Origin: an uncultured Clostridium sp.
GTDB taxonomy: Bacteria > Bacillota > Clostridia > Lachnospirales > Lachnospiraceae
Reading direction: 5' to 3'
Length of the DNA: 51,951 nucleotides
Assembly: GCA_947644195.1 (NCBI GenBank)
Contig: CANRZB010000023.1
Location: 1-51,951 of the forward strand
This document shows, one piece after another, positions 3,141 through 13,355 of the stretch. The position numbers and the translations under genes were made by a program. The notes below the pieces were generated by a model that worked only from the letters and a program-made list of their open reading frames with translations, did no database searches and was not told the origin of the DNA. The first letter of the stretch is position 1; every line of letters begins with the position of its first letter.

Positions 3141-4340
3141 ATGGAAGATAAGTATGAAGAAATCCTGGCGCAATATCCGATACAATATAAAAATAAAAAA
3201 CGTGTACGAGGGGCGGTCCTGCTGGAGACAGAGGATGGTTTGCGGTTGCTGCGTAATTATACTGGACATCGGAATCATCTGGCTGTGGAAGAACAGATCA
3301 AACAATACCTGATCAACCAGGGATATCCCTATGTGGACCTGGCGGTAGCGAATGGGCAGGGAGAGCTGCTTACCAGGGATGCCGTGGGTGGATTTTGGAT
3401 CATGCGGAAATGGTATGCGGGACGGGAATGTGATATCCGGGATGATAAAGAAGTGTGTTTGGCAGCAGCGCATTTAGGGAAACTTCATCAGATGTTGGTG
3501 CTGCCGGAAGAGTTATTGCAGGAAATGGCAGGAGATCGGGATGACAACACAGACGATCCGAAAAGCAAAGATTTGTCTGCGGCAGCTGTCGATTCACAGA
3601 ATGGCATTACCTTGTCGGAAGATTTGGATGGAAGAAGGAACGAAGTGGAATCGAACTGTGGAACAGGGGATGGCAGTAGTCAGATAGAATACTCCGGGAA
3701 ACGTTATTCGGATAAGGCGGCAGCGGATCCGGCACAACGGCAGCCGGAACAGGTGTATTTTGCAAAACGGAATCGGGAATTAAAGCGGATTCATGGTTAT
3801 ATCCGCAAAAAAAGAAGAAAAAATGAAATGGAATTGGGCTTGTTAAATGCATTTTCCTATTATTATGAACAGGGATGCGAGGCAGAACGCATGGATGCAG
3901 AGGGGGATGTTTACGGTACTCTGTATCGGCAGGCTTTACAGAATCGACAATATATTCATGGCAGTTATAATTACCATAATCTGCTGATACAGGGAAAGAG
4001 AATTGCCACCACGAATTTTGAAAATGTTAAAATAGGTATCCAGGTGTTGGATTTATATGGTTTTTTACGCAAGGTTATGGAAAAAAATGGATGGCAGTGT
4101 GGGCTCGGCACACAGATCTTGAAATCTTATCAGCAGAACCGGGAGCTGACAGAACCGGAATGTAAATTGCTGTACACCTTTTTGCTGTATCCTGAAAAAT
4201 ATTGGAAACAATGCAATTTTTATTACAATGGAAAAAAATCTTGGATGTCGGTTAAGAATTACGATAAATTGCTGCGTTTGCAGGCGCAGGAACAGGACAG
4301 ACGCCAGTTTTTAGAAACGATAAAAGGGGTTTTATTTTAG
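3141..4340 (+). CDS. CotS-family spore-coat protein (kinase-like fold)
   Basis: This 399-residue protein resembles the CotS/YsxE/YutH family of spore-coat proteins, which have an aminoglycoside-phosphotransferase-like fold. The N-terminus (VRGAVLLETEDGLRLLRNYTG) matches the nucleotide-lobe strands. WIMRKWYAGRECDIRD and the later LHQ helix match the hinge. YIHGSYNYHNLLIQ (about residue 272) occupies the place of the kinase catalytic loop (HGDxxxxN), so the Asp is replaced by Ser. ATTNFENVKIGIQVLDLYGFLRK follows it. A low-complexity polar insert spans about residues 130-195. GGGAGG ends ten bases before the start. It implies the organism forms endospores. Expression in the mother cell is likely, but no sigma-E or sigma-K promoter was confirmed. 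Confidence 0.85.
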   Translation: MEDKYEEILAQYPIQYKNKKRVRGAVLLETEDGLRLLRNYTGHRNHLAVEEQIKQYLINQGYPYVDLAVANGQGELLTRDAVGGFWIMRKWYAGRECDIRDDKEVCLAAAHLGKLHQMLVLPEELLQEMAGDRDDNTDDPKSKDLSAAAVDSQNGITLSEDLDGRRNEVESNCGTGDGSSQIEYSGKRYSDKAAADPAQRQPEQVYFAKRNRELKRIHGYIRKKRRKNEMELGLLNAFSYYYEQGCEAERMDAEGDVYGTLYRQALQNRQYIHGSYNYHNLLIQGKRIATTNFENVKIGIQVLDLYGFLRKVMEKNGWQCGLGTQILKSYQQNRELTEPECKLLYTFLLYPEKYWKQCNFYYNGKKSWMSVKNYDKLLRLQAQEQDRRQFLETIKGVLF

Positions 4341-4427
4341 AAGTCTCTGTAGTATAATATCCAATGATCTATATGGTTTCCTGGTACAACGGACAGAGTT
4401 GGGCGTTGTGCGAATAAGGAGGTTGTG

Positions 4428-5810
4428 ATGTTATACCATAGAAAATGGTTTCAGAGAGGTTTTTTTCTATTATTTATCTTGATTGTGGCAGCAGCTTTGG
4501 CAGGATGCAGTAGTCGTGCCGGAAGGCAGCGAAGAAGTGGAACATTCCGCATGAACACGGAGGAGCCGGATCATACGAGCAGTATTACCGGGGTGATTGT
4601 GCTGCAGGATGTCCAAAATACGAAACTGACAGTGCGGGAATTGGACTCGGATGTAGAATCCATATTGCATTATGATTCCTCTGCGGAGGTGTATGATCAG
4701 TATAAACAGCCGATTCGGGCGGATCAGTTAAAGACAGGGCTGATTGTGGAAGCACATTACCGCCCGGAAGATGCGGTGCTGGTCAAGGCGTCTGTGCCGG
4801 AAGAAGTCTGGGAATATAATGAGGTCGGTTCGTTTTCCTTCCGGGAGGAAGACCGTATGATGAAGTTTGCCGGAGAAAAATATCAGTATTCGGATTTAAC
4901 GTTTATCAGCTCCGGAGTGCAAAATCTTATGCGGGAAGACCTCAATACGCAGGACGAGCTAACAGTTCGAGGTGTGGGATATCGGGTTTATTCGATTGTC
5001 CGTACTATGGGACACGGCTACATTCGTCTGGCGAATTATGGGGATTTTATTGGTGGAATGGTTGAGGTAGGAAATGATATTATTTTGCCGATTACAGAGA
5101 ATATGCTGATTACAGCCGGTGAGGGGATTTATCCACTGACGCTGATCCGTGGCGATATGGTTACGACCAAGACCATTACGGTCACGGCGGATCAGGAGAT
5201 TGTAGCGGATTTCTCAGATTATGTTCCGGCATTGGAAAATGTGGGAATGGTTACATTTCAAATTGACCCGGAGGGTGCGGATTTATTTATCAATGGGACA
5301 ACCGTTGACTATTCTGCTCCCGTTGCATTAAACTATGGAGAGTACCGTGTTGTGGTAAAATTGACAGGGTACGATACCTATTCCGGAACGTTGGATGTAG
5401 AAGAACCATCTTCTTCTGTGAATATTGATCTGATTGAGAAAGCTGCCGGGGTAGATGGGCAGGAGTCCAAGACGACGGATTCCCCTTCTGCTACGGATGA
5501 TGCCAACGATACTGAAGATTCCGATTCGACAACGACCAAACGGGTGGACAGTAACCATTCGATTCATGTGACAGCGCCGAATGGGGTTGAGGTATATCTG
5601 GATAATGTATATAAAGGATTGGCGCCGTGCAAGTTTAAGAAAGTCATCGGTTCGCAGACGATTACATTACGAAAGAATGGGTATATTACAAAGAGTTATT
5701 CGGTCGATATATTGGATGATGATGAAAATGTATCGCTTAGTTTTCCGGAACTGGCGGAGGATGTGAATACGCCGGAGGAAAGCAGTGCTGCAACCAGCAA
5801 TCCATCCTGA
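4428..5810 (+). CDS. Lipoprotein with two PEGA domains
   Basis: This 460-residue protein is exported as a lipoprotein: a basic N-terminus, a hydrophobic stretch and the lipobox LAGC near residue 24. The central part is beta-rich and has no match I recognise. Two PEGA-type repeats follow. The first is about 274-325 (IDPEGADLFINGTTV, then LTGYDTYSGTLDV), and the second about 378-442 (APNGVEVYLDNVYKGLAP, then KNGYITKSYSVDI), separated by an acidic Ser/Thr/Asp linker. PEGA domains occur in surface proteins and often lie near peptidoglycan or S-layer. I chose ATG 4428 over the adjacent GTG at 4425 because AAGGAGG ends five bases before it. A TATAAT at 4353-4358 may belong to its promoter. Confidence 0.82.
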   Translation: MLYHRKWFQRGFFLLFILIVAAALAGCSSRAGRQRRSGTFRMNTEEPDHTSSITGVIVLQDVQNTKLTVRELDSDVESILHYDSSAEVYDQYKQPIRADQLKTGLIVEAHYRPEDAVLVKASVPEEVWEYNEVGSFSFREEDRMMKFAGEKYQYSDLTFISSGVQNLMREDLNTQDELTVRGVGYRVYSIVRTMGHGYIRLANYGDFIGGMVEVGNDIILPITENMLITAGEGIYPLTLIRGDMVTTKTITVTADQEIVADFSDYVPALENVGMVTFQIDPEGADLFINGTTVDYSAPVALNYGEYRVVVKLTGYDTYSGTLDVEEPSSSVNIDLIEKAAGVDGQESKTTDSPSATDDANDTEDSDSTTTKRVDSNHSIHVTAPNGVEVYLDNVYKGLAPCKFKKVIGSQTITLRKNGYITKSYSVDILDDDENVSLSFPELAEDVNTPEESSAATSNPS

Positions 5811-5924
5811 TCGTCTGTATAGGGACTTCGGGGGCGGAATATCTTTAAAACTTTTAGGATTGTTCTATCAGGCACGCATGATTGCAGGGGGATTTCGGCA
5901 ATGATGTGTGTGGATCAATAATGA

Positions 5925-6080
5925 TATAATGATAAGTGTCAGGGCAAGTGGTTCTTGGGAGGGACAAGCCGATCAGGAATGCTTGTGGGGACACAACGGG
6001 ATTAAGACAAGTCTTATGATCGGGAAACTCGTAAATTTACAACATATGAGCCGGCTATGTCCGGGACAGGAGGATGCATC
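5925..6080 (+). promoter_or_regulatory. Promoter -10 and structured leader of the phosphohexomutase gene
   Basis: A perfect TATAAT at 5925-5930 (with only a weak -35) would start a leader of about 144 bases. The leader can fold: GTGTC (5936-5940) pairs with GACAC (5990-5994), GCAAG (5944-5948) with CTTGT (5982-5986), and CTTG (5954-5957) with CAAG (5965-5968). A further palindrome, AAGACAAGTCTT, lies near 6004-6015. I do not match this to a known riboswitch class. Confidence 0.4.
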
Positions 6081-7808
6081 ATGAATTACAAAGATATTTA
6101 TGAGTCTTGGTTAAGTAATCCATATTTTGATGAAGAAACCAAGGCTGAGCTTAAGGCAATTACAGATGAAAGCGAAGTGAAAGAACGATTCTATAAGGAT
6201 CTGGAATTTGGTACAGCCGGATTACGTGGTGTCATTGGCGCTGGTACAAACCGCATGAATATCTACACTGTCCGAAAAGCGACACAGGGACTGGCAAATT
6301 ATATCATTAAGGCTGGGAAACAGAATCAGGGAGTGGCCATTGCCTATGATTCCCGCCATATGTCACCGGAATTTGCGGATGAGTCAGCATTGTGCCTGGC
6401 AGCAAATGGAATTAAAACTTATGTGTTTGAATCTTTGCGGCCGACACCGGAATTATCATTTGCAGTACGTGAATTGGGCTGTGCCGCCGGTATCAATATC
6501 ACAGCCAGCCATAACCCGCCAGAGTACAATGGCTACAAGGTGTACTGGGAAGATGGCGCTCAGATTACGCCGCCTCATGACAGTGGTATTATGAATGAGG
6601 TAAAAGCAGTGACGGATTATTCGTCAGTAAAGACAATGGATAAGGCAGATGCGGTGGAACAGGGACTGTATCAACAGATTGGCGCAGAAATTGATGATAA
6701 ATATATTGCAGAATTAAAGAAACAGGTCATTCACCAGGATAGTATTGATGCTGTTGGCAAGGATATCACGGTGGTTTATACACCGTTGCATGGCACGGGG
6801 AACATTCCGGCACGTCGTGTATTAAAAGAAATTGGATTTGAGAATGTATATGTGGTGCCAGAGCAGGAATTACCGGATGGGGATTTCCCGACAGTAAGTT
6901 ATCCGAATCCAGAAGCAGAAGAAGCATTTGAATTGGCGCTCAAACTGGCGGAAGAAAAGGATGCGGATCTGGTGCTGGCTACCGATCCGGATGCAGACCG
7001 TCTGGGTGTATATGTCAAGGATACCAAAAGCGGGAAGTATATTCCTCTAACCGGAAATATGTCCGGTTGTCTGCTCGCGGACTATGAAATTTCGCAGATT
7101 AAGGAAACCAAAGGACTGCCAAAGGATGGTAAACTGATTAAGACGATTGTGACTTCGAATCTGGCAGATGCGATTGCAGAATATTACGGTGTCGATCTGA
7201 TCGAAGTATTAACTGGATTTAAGTATATTGGACAACAGATCTTGGGCTTTGAGACCAGTGGCAAGGGAGAATATTTATTTGGTTTCGAGGAAAGTTATGG
7301 CTGTTTGATTGGTACCCATGCCAGAGATAAGGATGCGATTGTAGCAACGATGGCATTGTGTGAGGCAGCAGCTTATTATAAGACGAAGAATATGACGCTG
7401 TGGGATGCCATGATTGCCATGTATGAACGGTATGGATATTACCAGGATGGCGTGAAGGCAGTGACGATGAAAGGAATTGAGGGCCTGGAAAAGATTCAGG
7501 AAATCATGACTTCACTGAGAAAGAATCCGCCAAAGGAGATCGGTGGACACCAGGTAACAGCGTTCCGCGACTATCAGGCCGATACAATTACTGATCTGGC
7601 AAGCGGTGCTGTGAAGCCGACCGGCCTGCCGAAATCAAATGTGTTGTATTTTGATATGTCAGATAAAGTCTGGATGTGTGTCCGCCCATCCGGGACAGAG
7701 CCAAAGATTAAGTTTTATTATGGCGTGGTGGGAGATTCCCTGGATAATGCCGCCAAGAAATCAGAGGAAATGGCAGCAGCAGTCGATGCCATGATTGCAT
7801 CCATGTAA
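6081..7808 (+). CDS. Alpha-D-phosphohexomutase (phosphoglucomutase type)
   Basis: Interconverts hexose 1-phosphate and 6-phosphate through a phosphoserine enzyme, feeding glycogen, cell-wall and nucleotide-sugar synthesis. The 575 residues show all four domain markers. The phosphoserine loop is TASHNPPEYNGYK (Ser143), the metal loop is DPDADR (302-307), and the sugar-specificity loop is GFEESYGCL, with E-S-Y as in glucose-preferring PgcA-type enzymes. The C-terminal phosphate-binding loop is RPSGTEPK (535-542). Length suits the long PgcA branch rather than GlmM. ATG 6081 is chosen because AGGAGG lies at 6068-6073; an in-frame ATG at 6057 has no such site. The neighbour glgB at 14.5 kb suggests a role in glycogen synthesis. 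Confidence 0.93.
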   Translation: MNYKDIYESWLSNPYFDEETKAELKAITDESEVKERFYKDLEFGTAGLRGVIGAGTNRMNIYTVRKATQGLANYIIKAGKQNQGVAIAYDSRHMSPEFADESALCLAANGIKTYVFESLRPTPELSFAVRELGCAAGINITASHNPPEYNGYKVYWEDGAQITPPHDSGIMNEVKAVTDYSSVKTMDKADAVEQGLYQQIGAEIDDKYIAELKKQVIHQDSIDAVGKDITVVYTPLHGTGNIPARRVLKEIGFENVYVVPEQELPDGDFPTVSYPNPEAEEAFELALKLAEEKDADLVLATDPDADRLGVYVKDTKSGKYIPLTGNMSGCLLADYEISQIKETKGLPKDGKLIKTIVTSNLADAIAEYYGVDLIEVLTGFKYIGQQILGFETSGKGEYLFGFEESYGCLIGTHARDKDAIVATMALCEAAAYYKTKNMTLWDAMIAMYERYGYYQDGVKAVTMKGIEGLEKIQEIMTSLRKNPPKEIGGHQVTAFRDYQADTITDLASGAVKPTGLPKSNVLYFDMSDKVWMCVRPSGTEPKIKFYYGVVGDSLDNAAKKSEEMAAAVDAMIASM

Positions 7809-7839
7809 TCATAGTGAGTTTGTAGTTAGAAATAGGTAG

Positions 7840-7888
7840 AGAGCGTCACTGGATATGCCGTTGCGGTATCGTGTGACGCTCTTTGTTT
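7840..7888. terminator. Bidirectional terminator between convergent genes
   Basis: AGAGCGTCAC (7840-7849) and its complement GTGACGCTCT (7873-7882) form a perfect 10-bp stem. An inner partial stem lies between them, and CTTTGTTTT follows on the plus strand. It lies between the mutase gene and the leftward gene ending at 7896, and so can serve both. Confidence 0.85.
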
Positions 7889-7895
7889 TAAATTG

Positions 7896-8759
7896 TTAAA
7901 ATGACACCTTGTATAGCTTGGCTTCGTATTCATTGCTTCCCTTTGCTATTTGTTGTACCGCGGTATACATTGCTTTTTGCGGAATGGCACTGATGGATTG
8001 CATTTCGAATCGTTTCGTGTTGGAAGATTCCTGATCATAAAGACCGAGCAAAGTGCAACCGGTGTAACTTGGGGATGGCCCCGTTAAAGACCATTTTGCG
8101 ATATAATTTTTGTTTATCTCCTCGTTTTTCTTTTTGCCATATACTTTATAGAGATGATCATACTCCACGAACATACCTTGTCTGGTTAGACCGGTTTCTG
8201 TATCTAAAGTGGCTGGAATAGTGCCGCTATCCTTATCTAATGTAAAATTTGTTTCGTCAACAAAACCGCCGGTTAGACTAGGGTCTATGGTGGTATACAT
8301 CCTACAGACGGCAACTCTGTTTCCGTTTCCTAATAGAAAAAATTCATCAGAAATATGTGAGATACATGTAATGGCATCACCCAGGTAAGATCCTCGGTAT
8401 TCATAGGTATGTGTCTTGAGTAAGGAATTTTGATCAAAAGCATATATTTCTTTGTTTTTACTTGTGACAACATAATAGTTTCCATTATAATAGGTACAGT
8501 CGTTGGCATGTTTTAAATTGGTTTTTATGCTGCTGATTTTTGTACCAGAACCTGATATCCGTACTAATCGCGATTCGTTTTCACGTTCGGTTTTATTTGA
8601 TTTTAACATGGCAAATAGCTGGTTGCCAGAAGAACCTGCCGTGTATCCTTCCAAAAAACGGAACGATTTGGCAGCTTCGGAATTTTCTTTTGCATCCTCC
8701 ATTTTTTTGATAACATTTATTTCTTGGGTTAATGTGATTTTTCCTTTCTTAACACTCAT
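7896..8759 (-). CDS. Unknown protein, beta-propeller-like, in AT-rich islet
   Basis: I do not recognise this 287-residue protein. It begins with a charged helix (about residues 1-30) and has no signal peptide or membrane span. The rest is a run of short beta-strand blades with repeating patterns such as NDCTYYNGNYYVVTSKNKEI, ITCISHISDEFFLLGNG and HLYKVYGKK. These resemble a YncE/NHL-type propeller that logs or reads out values. Many Tyr, Asn and Thr residues support a beta-rich fold. It has its own promoter (8835-8863) and is divergent from the leucine-rich-repeat gene. Base composition is AT-richer than the flanking housekeeping genes, which suggests acquisition by transfer. Function is unknown. 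Confidence 0.6.
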   Translation of the reverse strand: MSVKKGKITLTQEINVIKKMEDAKENSEAAKSFRFLEGYTAGSSGNQLFAMLKSNKTERENESRLVRISGSGTKISSIKTNLKHANDCTYYNGNYYVVTSKNKEIYAFDQNSLLKTHTYEYRGSYLGDAITCISHISDEFFLLGNGNRVAVCRMYTTIDPSLTGGFVDETNFTLDKDSGTIPATLDTETGLTRQGMFVEYDHLYKVYGKKKNEEINKNYIAKWSLTGPSPSYTGCTLLGLYDQESSNTKRFEMQSISAIPQKAMYTAVQQIAKGSNEYEAKLYKVSF

Positions 8760-8834
8760 AATTATTTCCCTTTCTCTGTTGTAGCATTATTGATTTTATC
8801 TAATGTGACTATATTGTCTATTTTTATATTTATA

Positions 8835-8863
8835 GTTATCGCACAGAAAAATTGATCTGTCAA
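8835..8863 (-). promoter_or_regulatory. Sigma-A-type promoter, leftward
   Basis: On the minus strand a perfect TTGACA (8858-8863) and GATAAC (8835-8840) are separated by 17 bases. This drives the unknown protein gene that starts at 8759. Confidence 0.6.
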
Positions 8864-8887
8864 TAATTTTATTTATAGAAAAATATA

Positions 8888-8916
8888 TTGCGTATTTTTT
8901 CCTATAAGAGTATAAT
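8888..8916 (+). promoter_or_regulatory. Sigma-A-type promoter for the LRR protein gene
   Basis: TTGCGT (8888-8893) and a perfect TATAAT (8911-8916) are 17 bases apart. The two divergent promoters in this islet are separated by only 24 bases, so a single regulator could act on both. Confidence 0.65.
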
Positions 8917-8973
8917 AAATATTAAAAAATCCATAGAATGGGATTCATATTAGATTTGGGGGAAAGAAATCCA

Positions 8974-10440
8974 ATGAAAAAAGTAATCTTAACATTTAGT
9001 TTGCTTTGTTTGATGCTCAGTTTTAGTTTGGGAAGTAATCACAAGACAGGAGCATCTGCTATTTCAATCGAAGAAAAACAGGAAAAGAATTATGCGAAAT
9101 GGGCATATGATGATGCAACGCATTGTTTGACGATTTCTGGGACAGGGGAAACACATGATGAAGAGCGTGCGCAAGGTGGAGATGAAGTTTTGTTTACTGA
9201 AGCTGCCATTCCATATCCATATGGAATGGCAAAGTCTGCGAAGGACGCGGAAAAAAAGAAGAAAGCAGTACGAAAAATTGTCATAGAACCGGGAGTTACA
9301 GCAATTAACCGGGCGGCATTTTTTGAGTTTACTAATTTGGAGAGCGTCATTATTCCAGATAGTGTAGAAACTATCAGTGATCATGTATTCTGGGGATGTA
9401 GTTCTCTAAGGGAGCTTATAATACCGGATAGTGTTACCTCCATTGGGACTGGTTGTTTTGCGCACTGCAAATCATTAAAAAAATTAGTTCTTGGCAAAAA
9501 TGTCCAAAGCATTGGGGAGGGAAATTTTTGTGACTGTCGTTCCCTACGAAAGATAACGGTGCATCCGGAAAATATGGAATTTATTACAAAGAAAGGCTGT
9601 CTGTATCAGCGGAAACAGAAGATTCTATGTTTTAGTTATGCAGATTCCCGTAGGGTCTCTATTGAAAAGGGAACAAAACAGATTGGGGCCTTTGCATTTA
9701 CCTTTCATAGTAAGCTTCAGGAAGTGAAAATTCCTGCTTCTGTAACAACGATTGGCGGGGGCTCCTTCTATCAGTGTAAAAATTTACGGAAGATTTTGTT
9801 TGCTAAGAAATCAAAGTGCCGGGAAATAGAATCTTTTTCGTGGCTTGGGATTTCGTGGGATTATGTTTATGAAGATGAAACAAATTATGGTTGTATTACG
9901 TTTTGTAACAGTCTAGAGGAGCTGTGTTTTCCAGAATCCCTTCGATATATTGGACATGATGCTCTGAGTAAGTGTGGTTCTTTGAAGAAAGTATTTTTTG
10001 GAAGAAGATTTCAAGGACATCGTTTAGATGAAAAAGAGGAAAAAAGAGATGGGCATCATCCTATAGAGATTAGGTCATTCAGATGGGAAACTGGACTTAT
10101 GATGGGAGATAGGGCGTTAAAATCGGTTGAAATATCAAAGAAGAATCCGTATTTTTGCTCTAGAGATGGTCTTGTTTATGACAAAAAGAGGACTATTTTA
10201 TATTTCTGTCCAGAAGCGAAAGCTGCGGCAAAAATCAAAATTCCCGGAAGTGTGAAACAAATTAAATATTATGCTTTTTGGCGGTGTAAAAAAGTACAAT
10301 CGGTTGTGATACCAGGGAAAAATACTAAAATAGGTCTCAATGCATTTAAAGATACTGAGCATATGGTCTTATATGGAAAGAAAAATTCAAAAGCACAGAA
10401 ATATGCTAAAAAACATAAAATGAAATTTGTTATCATATAG
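8974..10440 (+). CDS. Secreted BspA-type leucine-rich-repeat protein
   Basis: This 488-residue protein has a signal peptide (basic MKK, hydrophobic core, cleavage probably near the ASA at about 27-29). BspA-type (LRR_5) repeats follow. Typical units are ESVIIPDSVETISDHVFWGC, ELIIPDSVTSIGTGCFAHC and KLVLGKNVQSIGEGNFCDC, each with the SIxxxxFxxC frame. Later units are separated by longer charged inserts, and the chain ends in the usual KNSKAQKYAKKH cap. No sortase motif, lipobox or choline-binding repeats are seen, so it is probably released or loosely wall-bound. ATG 8974 is chosen because GGGGGAAAG lies at 8958-8966 and the signal peptide starts there. Such proteins often mediate adhesion. 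Composition is AT-rich like the genes beside it. Confidence 0.85.
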   Translation: MKKVILTFSLLCLMLSFSLGSNHKTGASAISIEEKQEKNYAKWAYDDATHCLTISGTGETHDEERAQGGDEVLFTEAAIPYPYGMAKSAKDAEKKKKAVRKIVIEPGVTAINRAAFFEFTNLESVIIPDSVETISDHVFWGCSSLRELIIPDSVTSIGTGCFAHCKSLKKLVLGKNVQSIGEGNFCDCRSLRKITVHPENMEFITKKGCLYQRKQKILCFSYADSRRVSIEKGTKQIGAFAFTFHSKLQEVKIPASVTTIGGGSFYQCKNLRKILFAKKSKCREIESFSWLGISWDYVYEDETNYGCITFCNSLEELCFPESLRYIGHDALSKCGSLKKVFFGRRFQGHRLDEKEEKRDGHHPIEIRSFRWETGLMMGDRALKSVEISKKNPYFCSRDGLVYDKKRTILYFCPEAKAAAKIKIPGSVKQIKYYAFWRCKKVQSVVIPGKNTKIGLNAFKDTEHMVLYGKKNSKAQKYAKKHKMKFVII

Positions 10441-10538
10441 CTTGTAACAATTAGAATATGGAGTCAGAAATTTCTTGTACATAGCTAAAAAAACGGTTGT
10501 AGCTGCTTTCGGACTACATAGTAATAGGGAGAGGATAG

Positions 10539-11597
10539 ATGGATATAAAAATATTACCTCTGGAGACGGTTCCGCTTACTGCATGGGCGGAACAGAATTT
10601 TTTATTTGGAATTGTGAAAAGTCAAGTTACCGGTTGGGACTGGTTATTGAATCAATTTATACAATTACGGGGAGCCCATTATGTGAATTTTGAGTACGGC
10701 GCTGTTGATTCTAGTATTACGTTTTATCCTTATTCTATACATCAATTAGCCCCCAATATGTTTGATTTATGTCCATTTATCAATAAATACACCATACCAA
10801 AGAAATATGTCATGAATCACTATGAAAGTTTTTATGATTTTGTCAAAGAAACATTGGATGATGGATTTTATCTATCGACTTTTTTAGATCAGTTTTTCCG
10901 GAAGGACAGGGATGGTGAGGGATTTCGCCATCCAAATTTTATTTATGGATATAATAAGAAGAATGATTCTGTTTACCTGGCAGATAATTTTGAGTACGGA
11001 AAATTTTGTAAAAAAGAAATATCAAGAATTGATTTAGAACGAGCTTTTGAACTTGTATCTGATAATTTATGGGAAGTAAGTGTTTTTTTATATAAATTAG
11101 TCGACTATCATCATCAATTTAACAGTAAGTATGTAAAAGAGCAGATAGAAGATTACTTACATCCTAATCGAGGAATATGTTATTTTAACCGGACAGTGTG
11201 TATAGAACCTGTTCATATGGATGAGCACTACCTTAATGAAGTTTATTTTGGTGTAGAGTGTTATGATCTACTGAGAAACTATATTGTAGCATTAATAGAG
11301 GGAAATAATGTTTATCTAAATGATGATTGGCGTAGTTTTGCAATGCTATTGGATCATAAGATAATAATGCAGGAAAGGTATGTTTATATGGTAGAAAATA
11401 CCTATATGAATGGGGATGATAAATTACGAATTGGGCTAGCAGAACTGAAGGATGAATGTGCAATTGTCAGGAATTTATTTTTGAAATATACGGTTAAGAG
11501 AAATACACTGATTTTATTTCGAATTGCAGAACGTTTACATCAAATCCAGGAGAAAGATAAGGAGTATATGAATTTATTCATGGATAAAATTTTATAA
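10539..11597 (+). CDS. BtrH/C39-like putative acyltransferase
   Basis: The 352 residues resemble a family found beside carrier proteins in peptide and aminoglycoside clusters, with an N-terminal domain like BtrH (which moves an acyl group from a carrier protein to an amine) and C39 peptidases. Visible pattern: N-terminal LPLETVPLTAWAEQNFLFGI, then CPFINKYTIP (C78), a YDFVKETLDDGFYLSTFLDQ helix-strand, and RHPNFIYGYN (H131) followed by SVYLADNF (D149). The His and Asp would match the C39-fold pair. No cysteine is present near the N-terminus where C39 peptidases carry the nucleophile. Residues 165-352 are helical and unassigned. GGGAGAGG sits just before ATG 10539. It is followed by an ACP and an adenylating enzyme. 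Family assignment is by pattern only. Confidence 0.55.
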   Translation: MDIKILPLETVPLTAWAEQNFLFGIVKSQVTGWDWLLNQFIQLRGAHYVNFEYGAVDSSITFYPYSIHQLAPNMFDLCPFINKYTIPKKYVMNHYESFYDFVKETLDDGFYLSTFLDQFFRKDRDGEGFRHPNFIYGYNKKNDSVYLADNFEYGKFCKKEISRIDLERAFELVSDNLWEVSVFLYKLVDYHHQFNSKYVKEQIEDYLHPNRGICYFNRTVCIEPVHMDEHYLNEVYFGVECYDLLRNYIVALIEGNNVYLNDDWRSFAMLLDHKIIMQERYVYMVENTYMNGDDKLRIGLAELKDECAIVRNLFLKYTVKRNTLILFRIAERLHQIQEKDKEYMNLFMDKIL

Positions 11598-11658
11598 TCC
11601 ATGATGTAGTATATATATCGAAAATTAAGTTAATTAAAAAGGGAAAAGAGGGATTAAG

Positions 11659-11913
11659 ATGCAGGATACGAAGAAAAAATTATATGCTATTATTGGAAAA
11701 TTGATGGAAAATGTAGATATTGCATTATCAGAGGATATGAACTTAATTGATGACTTAAATTTTGATTCTATTCAGTTAATAAACTTAATTATTGAAATTG
11801 AGGAGCAATTTGGTGTGGAATTTAATGACTCGGATTTACTATTTGATCATTTTAATCGTATATCAGATCTTTGTAGTTTGATTAACCAGCTATTGAATAA
11901 AGATAGCCAATAG
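11659..11913 (+). CDS. Stand-alone acyl/peptidyl carrier protein
   Basis: This 84-residue acidic four-helix protein carries the phosphopantetheine attachment motif DDLNFDSIQLINLI, with Ser37 as the modified residue. The flanking helices LYAIIGKLMENV and LIIEIEEQFGVEF have the PP-binding pattern. It is not the housekeeping AcpP: the motif is DSIQL rather than DSLD and no fatty-acid genes adjoin it. It lies between a BtrH-like protein and a PaaK-type adenylating enzyme, so it probably holds the acyl or aminoacyl unit as a thioester. A phosphopantetheinyl transferase is needed to activate it and is not encoded here. GAGGGAT precedes the start. Confidence 0.9.
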   Translation: MQDTKKKLYAIIGKLMENVDIALSEDMNLIDDLNFDSIQLINLIIEIEEQFGVEFNDSDLLFDHFNRISDLCSLINQLLNKDSQ

Positions 11914-11940
11914 CTCTGAAAAATGCATAGGGGGAAAGGT

Positions 11941-13173
11941 ATGTTGGATTTGGATGAAAAAAATATTCCAAAGGAAGTGGAAGAAATGGTACAGTACGCG
12001 TATAGTAAGGTACCGTTATATACCAGTTTGGCTAGGAAACATAATTTAACAGACCTGGATTTTTTTCAATTACCATATGTATCTAAGGATGTTTATATGG
12101 AAAGTAAAGAGTTATCTGTTTCTGTTGATTATTTGCCTCAAATGATGAAAGGTCAATTATTTTATGGAAAGACCTCTGGTTCTACGGGAAAAATAACAGA
12201 ATATTATTGGGACAGAAAAGATGAAAATAAGTCTTTAATGGAATTATGGTATTATAGAAGAAAGTATTATAATATTACGCCGGCAGATAAATTATGTTAT
12301 TTTTTTCCGATTTCATCAGAGGCCACTGAATGTATTGAAGATAAGCATATATTAGGAATTTCGAAAAGTTTTTTGTATAATGGTAGAATTGTCGATGCCT
12401 ATCTGCATATGTTAGAATATCAACCTAAATGGTTGATATTACAGCCTAGTGTAGCATGGATGCTTTGTCAGGCTATTAAAAATCAAAAATTGGAATATTT
12501 GCCTTCTGTAGATTATATAGAATTTACTGGGGAGTATTTAGAGGATAGTATTAGGCAGTTGGTAGAAGAGGTGTTTCGTTGTAAAACAGCAAACCAATAT
12601 GGTATACGGGAAGTAAATTCTATTGCATATGAATGTCCGGAAAGATGTATGCATGTTATGAACAAAAATGCATATATTGAGATTTTGGCAGATGACGGAG
12701 AAGTTGGGAATATCGTTGTGACATCTTTAAAAAACCGAGTTATGCCATATATTCGATATGATACTGGAGATAAGGGAAGATGGGTTGATAAGAAATGTAA
12801 ATGTGGAAATCATAATCCAATACTTGTGGTATGTAATGGACGAGATAATGATTGGGTTAGGAAAATAAATGGCGAGTTATTACATCCATATGCTTTGTTA
12901 GAAATAATCAATGAAATAAATTGTAAAATGAATGGCGCTATTATTCAATATCAACTAATTCAAAAGGAATTAGATTATTTCCAATATCGTTTTGTTGTCA
13001 GGGAGGATGCCGATACGGAATCTTTGGAGAAAGAATTGTGCCTCATGACAGCAGAACGCCTGCAACAGGAATTTAATTTGGAGATACGATATTATAGACA
13101 ATTAATCCCAGATATAAAAACAGGAAAAATTGCTGCTTTTTGTTCTGAAATAAATAAAGAAAATGAGGACTAG
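11941..13173 (+). CDS. PaaK/CapK-type adenylate-forming enzyme
   Basis: A 410-residue member of the phenylacetate-CoA ligase/CapK branch of adenylate-forming enzymes. Motifs in order are the phosphate loop YGKTSGSTGK (75-84), YGIREVNSIAYECP (220-233), YIRYDTGD (270-277), the cysteine pair CKCG (286-289), GRDNDWV (300-306) and a C-terminal TGKIAAF with the likely catalytic Lys near 396. It should activate a carboxylic acid with ATP and, given the adjacent carrier protein, load it as a thioester. The substrate is not predictable. ATG 11941 follows AGGGGG at 11929-11934; an in-frame ATG at 11923 lacks a good site. It is short for an NRPS adenylation domain and has no attached carrier or condensation domain. 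Very AT-rich. Confidence 0.85.
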   Translation: MLDLDEKNIPKEVEEMVQYAYSKVPLYTSLARKHNLTDLDFFQLPYVSKDVYMESKELSVSVDYLPQMMKGQLFYGKTSGSTGKITEYYWDRKDENKSLMELWYYRRKYYNITPADKLCYFFPISSEATECIEDKHILGISKSFLYNGRIVDAYLHMLEYQPKWLILQPSVAWMLCQAIKNQKLEYLPSVDYIEFTGEYLEDSIRQLVEEVFRCKTANQYGIREVNSIAYECPERCMHVMNKNAYIEILADDGEVGNIVVTSLKNRVMPYIRYDTGDKGRWVDKKCKCGNHNPILVVCNGRDNDWVRKINGELLHPYALLEIINEINCKMNGAIIQYQLIQKELDYFQYRFVVREDADTESLEKELCLMTAERLQQEFNLEIRYYRQLIPDIKTGKIAAFCSEINKENED

Positions 13174-13355
13174 CAAGTATGCCATAATAATGTAAAATCC
13201 CTCTGCACTATTCCCAAGAATTTGCATCAGGACGTTCTGACTTTTGTAAAAGAACGGGGCAGTCTGTTTCAGTCATATTTTTTCCTTTTCCTACATATAT
13301 TTATTAGGATTAGGGATCACTGCTAATGGAACAGCCAGAACGGGGGATATGATTT

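Follow-up and report, generated by a model that had tools for sequence, protein, structure and literature searches.

How much acyl-transfer chemistry can be encoded by three adjacent genes, and on what would it act? The question is raised by a 51,951-nucleotide stretch of DNA from an uncultured Clostridium sp. of the Lachnospiraceae (contig CANRZB010000023.1 of assembly GCA_947644195.1; "the window" below), in which a protein that we call P1, a free carrier protein and an adenylating ligase are the products of three consecutive open reading frames (ORFs) on the forward strand, at positions 10539-13173. An earlier note on this DNA proposed that the set activates an acid, holds it on the carrier and passes it to an amine. 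Our analysis indicates that it is probably a mobile, multi-copy cassette for carrier-protein acyl transfer. P1 belongs to an unannotated family that has an amide-synthase fold, is usually encoded beside a carrier and is missing the usual active-site cysteine. The family therefore lets one ask if, and how, this fold transfers acyl groups without that residue.

10539..11597, + strand: P1, 352 aa; predicted BtrH/CcbD/CtaG fold, with D117, H131, D149, D263-x-R265 and H273-K274
11659..11913, + strand: free carrier protein, 84 aa; phosphopantetheine Ser37
11923..13173, + strand: PaaK/CapK-type adenylating ligase, 416 aa

The ORFs were called with a simple script, and the trio is AT-rich, as the earlier note described, with a GC content of 0.315 against 0.445 for the window outside an island at 7809-13355. 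The gap between P1 and the carrier gene is 61 bp. Promoter-like sites number 34, compared with 26.0 (standard deviation 5.1) in shuffles. The conservation of the set across other genomes argues against a chance gene order, which we reject.

Carrier, ligase and the proposed reactions

The second and third proteins are what the earlier note took them for. The carrier matches the Pfam PP-binding family (PF00550) at 3.4e-10, with 40.4 bits against a cut-off of 20.8, and all 11 carriers aligned keep Ser37. It also matches the AsbD model at 1.6e-8 (34.9 of the 100 bits required), and falls below the cut-off of the TIGR04069 peptide-maturation carrier (17.6 of 70 bits). The ligase has the P-loop, adenylation motifs and C-terminal lysine of the PaaK/CapK-type class: TSGSTGK (84), QYG (225), YDTGD (279), CxCG (292) and the TGK lysine K402, which is invariant in nine of nine aligned ligases. 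The closest solved relative of its profile is 9s3l (1.4e-34). It reaches none of the NCBIfam equivalog cut-offs, the best being DVU1553 (90 of 300 bits), with PaaK at 44.4 of 646, and a match to the FlxY model (2.5e-15) is likewise below cut-off. From the sequence, its start may be better placed at ATG 11941, behind GGGGGAAAGG.

In the scheme that we favor, the ligase would make an acyl-adenylate from a carboxylic acid and would then load the carrier, the Ser37 arm of which would have been installed by a phosphopantetheinyl transferase (PPTase) from elsewhere in the genome, where candidates lie on contigs C31 and C21. P1 would dock the loaded carrier and transfer its acyl group to an amine or some other nucleophile. 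The cassette has no transporter, as had been remarked; among the ORFs of the window cassette, no exporter, transporter, acceptor-making enzyme, tailoring enzyme or further transferase was found.

P1 and its missing cysteine

The earlier note called P1 BtrH-like and suggested that its predicted structure be compared with BtrH; the model came out as a BtrH/CcbD/CtaG fold. In a VIA second look at Foldseek's top 1000 chains, which returns ranges only, it fits the papain-like amide-synthase fold along its whole chain. Profile homology to BtrH_N was detected by hhalign (E 1e-9, from column 97 onward), and H131 and D149 of P1 align with the His and Asp of the BtrH/CcbD/CtaG family, so that the His/Asp pattern read in the sequence (H131, D117 and D149) holds up. 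Two points went unmentioned in the earlier note, the lack of the usual cysteine and of a family match: P1 gave no match to Pfam or NCBIfam at E<=1, it lies below the gathering cut-off of BtrH_N (PF14399, 29.7 bits), as do its relatives L043 (15.7 bits) and L144 (17.4 bits), and its profile matched no PDB sequence at E<=10.

The cysteine is where P1 departs from its structural relatives. A passage of PMC10318531 describes it as always lying at the N terminus of the core helix in papain-like families, and in the BtrH_N set C14, H121 and G127 are present in 10 of 10 rows, with D139 nearly so. The core helix of the P1 model begins at residue 17, and the cysteines of CcbD and CtaG map near residues 16-17 according to the model and the VIA range ends. 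Conservation was counted over 40 distinct P1-family sequences, comprising the 30 of alignment A5 (the window P1 with 29 retained out of the 79 other P1 proteins that had been clustered) and ten further relatives, one of which is cut and does not reach residues 16-17. No cysteine occurs at residue 16 or 17 in any of the 39 that reach there; residue 16 is W, F or Y in 30 of 30 A5 rows, and the first cysteine of the window P1 is residue 78. Some relatives carry a non-conserved cysteine elsewhere before residue 44. We have therefore rejected P1 as a standard BtrH enzyme, the cysteine being absent at the expected place. Other residues are strongly kept: D263 and R265 in 40 of 40 sequences, H131 in 39 of 40 (30 of 30 in A5), D117 as Asp in 37 of 40, and D149 as Asp in 33 of 40 and Glu in one (29 Asp and one Glu within A5).

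CcbD, of the CcbD/LmbD lincosamide amide synthases, has a Cys-His-Glu triad and operates by a ping-pong mechanism through its cysteine (PMC12945683); P1 has no cysteine at that place. CcbD also sits within a large antibiotic cluster, whereas P1 sits in a three-gene cassette. For CtaG of closthioamide synthesis, C11, H128 and D144 are the positions of the variants listed in PDB titles, and of these P1 keeps only the His and acidic counterparts. BtrH of butirosin synthesis and the BtrH_N set share with P1 the profile homology and the His/Asp pattern, but C14 is invariant in the set. AziU3, solved together with AziU2, is 10% identical to P1 in sequence, and we take it to be a protein of an azinomycin-type cluster.

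Because the usual nucleophile is absent while the His and acidic residues are kept, the likeliest route would be direct attack on the carrier thioester by an acceptor activated by His131, with no acyl-cysteine step at the usual place. Several observations weigh against this picture. The position of the missing cysteine derives from a model and an ungapped extrapolation from VIA range ends rather than from aligned residues; the hhalign match begins only at column 97, and MAFFT left the BtrH N termini unaligned in this region. Among the ten further relatives, H131 is replaced by Lys in one, D117 by Asn in three and D149 by Gly in six. Loss of the nucleophile could have turned P1 into a non-catalytic carrier-binding protein, and Cys78, which together with Pro79 is invariant in 30 of 30 A5 sequences, could be a substitute nucleophile. 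The variable residues and the missing cysteine thus mean that direct His-assisted transfer, a role for Cys78 and a non-catalytic role all have to be entertained.

A relocated nucleophile would restore an ordinary ping-pong mechanism. Cys78 is kept in two of the ten further relatives, and of the eight without it four have a cysteine within about five residues, but the remaining four (C67, G003, G006C14 and G053) have none near, three of them in the same kind of cassette. Cys78 is accordingly rejected as a universal nucleophile, and we consider a relocated nucleophile unlikely. We hold an equally low opinion of the idea that P1 is a scaffold, gatekeeper or sensor that binds the acylated carrier while another protein carries out the transfer. 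Inactive papain-fold proteins are on record (PMC10318531), none of the 39 P1-family sequences that reach residues 16 and 17 has a cysteine there, and D149, D117 or H131 varies in some relatives; on the other hand, H131 is kept in all but one sequence and D263/R265 in all, and the window cassette encodes no other transferase.

Copies, distribution and an insertion site

The source genome contains four cassettes, on contigs C23 (the window), C68, C61 and C67. A ligase profile search of 28 genomes of the genus returned 17 strong loci and two weak ones (near E 2e-23), and the ligase, carrier and a P1-like protein occur together in 13 of the 17. One further locus, that of genome G010, reaches a contig edge after the carrier, ligase and a matrixin, and three are lone ligases at what is apparently one orthologous place. 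Across the 13 complete loci the proteins co-diverge, with Mantel r values of 0.73 for P1-carrier, 0.54 for P1-ligase and 0.80 for carrier-ligase (p <= 0.001). When the window P1 alone was used as query, matches were found in 8 of 61 genomes, its own included, and the distribution is therefore patchy.

A wider scan of a genome collection with P1 confirmed 108 relatives, of which 80 were kept; together with the window they make up the 81 loci counted here (L038-L042 duplicate the contigs of L021, L022, L023, L028 and L024, and were counted once, under the former names). In 73 of the 81, P1 and a carrier gene are no more than 400 bp apart, making the carrier the regular partner of the family. A member of the ligase family is near P1 in six. 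None was found in the other 75, some of which are on short contigs; this is a further point against the favored scheme, and loading in most relatives must differ or be encoded elsewhere. A PPTase-like cluster, one representative of which was tested (Pfam, 2.7e-14), is present in 46 of 81 loci, and in 39 of 80 its gene comes next on the same strand. Many distant loci have the order L11-L1-carrier-P1-PPTase (ribosomal names assigned by eye), and these are, judging from record titles, mostly from ruminant-gut Lachnospiraceae. Among L044-L117 (L062 and L085, for example), the carrier and P1 relative follow L11-L1 in many Lachnospiraceae, often accompanied by a PPTase-like gene and with no ligase of the family near; at L109 a large ORF nearby looks, by eye, like an AMP-binding enzyme.

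Outside the Lachnospiraceae, relatives were found in Ruminiclostridium cellobioparum and Paenibacillus arenosi. Two Paenibacillus plasmid records carry P1 relatives of 24-25% identity, one lying among two annotated carriers and two adenylate-forming enzymes and the other adjoining nonribosomal peptide synthetase genes. A Paenibacillus relative matches the DarH model at 0.0034, below its cut-off.

The surroundings of the cassette in the window are as follows.

7809..13355, no strand: AT-rich island, bounded on one side by a gene resembling phosphoglucomutase (by eye) and on the other by one for an M14 carboxypeptidase
7896..8759, - strand: 287-aa protein of no recognised family, without a predicted signal
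8938..10440, + strand: BspA-type LRR_5 protein, 500 aa, predicted to be exported; directly upstream of the cassette

The cassette has been inserted at a site that is vacant in relatives: the two genes that flank the island are adjacent in genomes G003 and G011. In G010 the phosphoglucomutase-like gene is followed by a different cassette (carrier, ligase and matrixin), with the M14 gene on another contig, so at least two distinct cassettes have entered this site. Across the genus, what lies downstream of the phosphoglucomutase-like gene varies: the site is vacant in some genomes, it holds different cassettes in the source genome and G010, and in several others this gene is followed by one resembling the window's next gene (glgB-like, by eye). 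The 287-aa protein resembles a 281-aa protein adjoining the C68 cassette (phmmer, 7e-19). No link to phages emerged: a scan of viral_contigs with the P1 profile confirmed no relative, and phage records gave only distant ligase matches of at most 31% identity. Among the repeats listed, none formed a conspicuous pair on either side of the island.

What the cassette might acylate

Two kinds of acceptor come into question, exported proteins encoded in the operon and small amines, and we regard them as about equally likely, each carrying roughly a third of the weight. In the first case, the carrier-bound acyl group would be placed on cassette-linked exported proteins before Sec export, the partner varying from copy to copy. 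By a crude, home-made signal-peptide script, 34 of 57 ORFs within two genes of the cassettes and on the same strand are predicted to be exported, compared with 6 of 90 elsewhere in the source genome (Fisher p 2e-12, a nominal value since the loci are related and not independent). The first count omits the lone-ligase loci L148-L150, opposite-strand ORFs and ORFs below 100 aa, and the background consists of five source-genome stretches, read on both strands, from which the island and the biosynthetic part of L036 were excluded. A looser cut, applied to the same loci, counted 54 of 94 ORFs nearby and 17 of 66 farther away. Between the core genes themselves (five loci, ORFs of at least 100 aa) the proportion is 10 of 13, the others being an AMP-binding enzyme, the amino acid:carrier ligase-like protein encoded in C61 and an ORF overlapping a gene for a predicted exported protein; genes for exported proteins stand between core genes in L144, L145, L147 and L023.

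The exported partners are diverse, comprising LRR_5, matrixin M10, subtilase S8, C70 papain-like, SpoIID and 3D proteins and a GH5 protein with Big_2 and LRR_5, and for several no Pfam match was obtained. LRR_5 proteins are also found near the cassettes of L007, L144, L146, L147 and L023, and in the window the LRR_5 protein is the only neighbor of this kind directly beside the cassette. A post hoc count found cysteine as the last residue in 6 of 55 exported proteins near cassettes and in 0 of 100 background exported proteins, although a slightly looser export rule was used, the background loci are partly from other genera and several of the six are related. Exported hydrolases ending in Cys were noted in L009, L023, L143, L147 and L028.

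A precedent, by analogy only, is offered by the HlyC-type acyltransferases, with an acyl-carrier protein donor, an exported target and a proposed acyl-His intermediate; no dedicated ligase is described for them in the part of PMC8339906 consulted, whereas the cassette has one. That the window cassette encodes neither an exporter nor a tailoring enzyme also fits protein acylation. Against it, no common target motif was found by eye, the crude signal rule and the relatedness of the loci leave the p-values nominal, and most P1 genes of the broad family adjoin ribosomal-protein genes (L048 has exported-looking genes after P1). Hitch-hiking could also explain the association, in regions where exported genes are abundant. 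The fuller version, a mobile system in which ligase and carrier feed a Cys-free papain-fold transferase that acylates varied exported hydrolases and LRR proteins of the same operon, is doubtful, somewhat more so than protein acylation as such. If true, one conserved modification machine would travel with changing exported substrates.

In the second case, the product of the cassette would be an N-acyl amine or an ester, and the genes for exported proteins would be unrelated neighbors or would act on this product. The acceptor of CcbD is a small amine (PMC12945683), the Paenibacillus relatives lie within or beside biosynthetic genes, and the C61 cassette goes beyond the basic trio with a Cys-bearing BtrH_N protein, another carrier and a protein resembling amino acid:carrier ligases. 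The exported genes, however, lie inside four cassettes and not merely alongside, and the window cassette has no transporter and no acceptor-making or tailoring enzyme. On the whole, the interpretation given in the earlier note is partly supported.

Gene sets of this composition are already known: a ligase, a carrier and a BtrH-like protein co-occur in described pathways. They are found together in closthioamide synthesis (PMC6772006), and the aryl-polyene/dialkylresorcinol and flexirubin systems, larger pigment gene clusters than the cassette, likewise combine a BtrH-like protein with carriers and an AMP ligase (PMC3949708). As early as 2010, transacylases of the BtrH family and other papain-like ones were predicted to be encoded alongside carriers and acyl ligases in operons for peptide synthesis (PMC2922099). 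New are the P1 clade without the usual cysteine, the brevity of the cassette together with its mobility and multiple copies, and its association with exported genes; our searches of the open-licence PubMed Central literature listed no paper on this cassette. The AsbC-AsbD-AsbE set of petrobactin synthesis presumably offers a further parallel, with a stand-alone adenylase, a carrier and a condensing protein. As the cassettes of the genus are short, multi-copy, mobile and linked to exported enzymes, new acylated small products or a new bacterial protein acylation should be within reach of two- or three-protein reconstitution.

Some related clusters are larger. The enlarged C61 cassette (L008, G000:C61, 2714-7474) encodes a P1-like protein, a carrier, a Cys-bearing BtrH_N protein, an amino acid:carrier ligase-like protein, a second carrier and a PaaK-type ligase, and thus two apparent loading routes within one operon; the amino acid:carrier ligase-like protein matches NCBIfam PRK07080 at 2.9e-37, yet with 128 of 357 bits. 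Another biosynthetic-looking cluster of the same genome (L036, G000:C2:8000-27900, 3680-12811) has an amino acid:carrier protein ligase-like gene, a BtrH_N protein and a carrier, together with radical S-adenosylmethionine (SAM)-like and ATP-binding cassette transporter genes assigned by eye. In Bacterium D16-51 (G008, L026, 98-9351) a P1 relative lies in a cluster resembling those for ribosomally synthesized and post-translationally modified peptides, with a radical SAM/SPASM-like protein, a carrier, a subtilisin-like protein with a TIGR04066-like part, an FkbM-type methyltransferase and a B12-type radical SAM-like protein, labels that come from NCBIfam matches mostly below cut-offs. Finally, a secreted family of about 410-465 aa recurs beside cassettes (L009, 560-1945 and 3737-5134; L147, 10257-11576; L023, 1694-2947); the members tested had no Pfam match, the family looks papain-like by eye (YNCYNYAW ... 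H in L009), and in L009 and L023 it is accompanied by lipoprotein-like genes.
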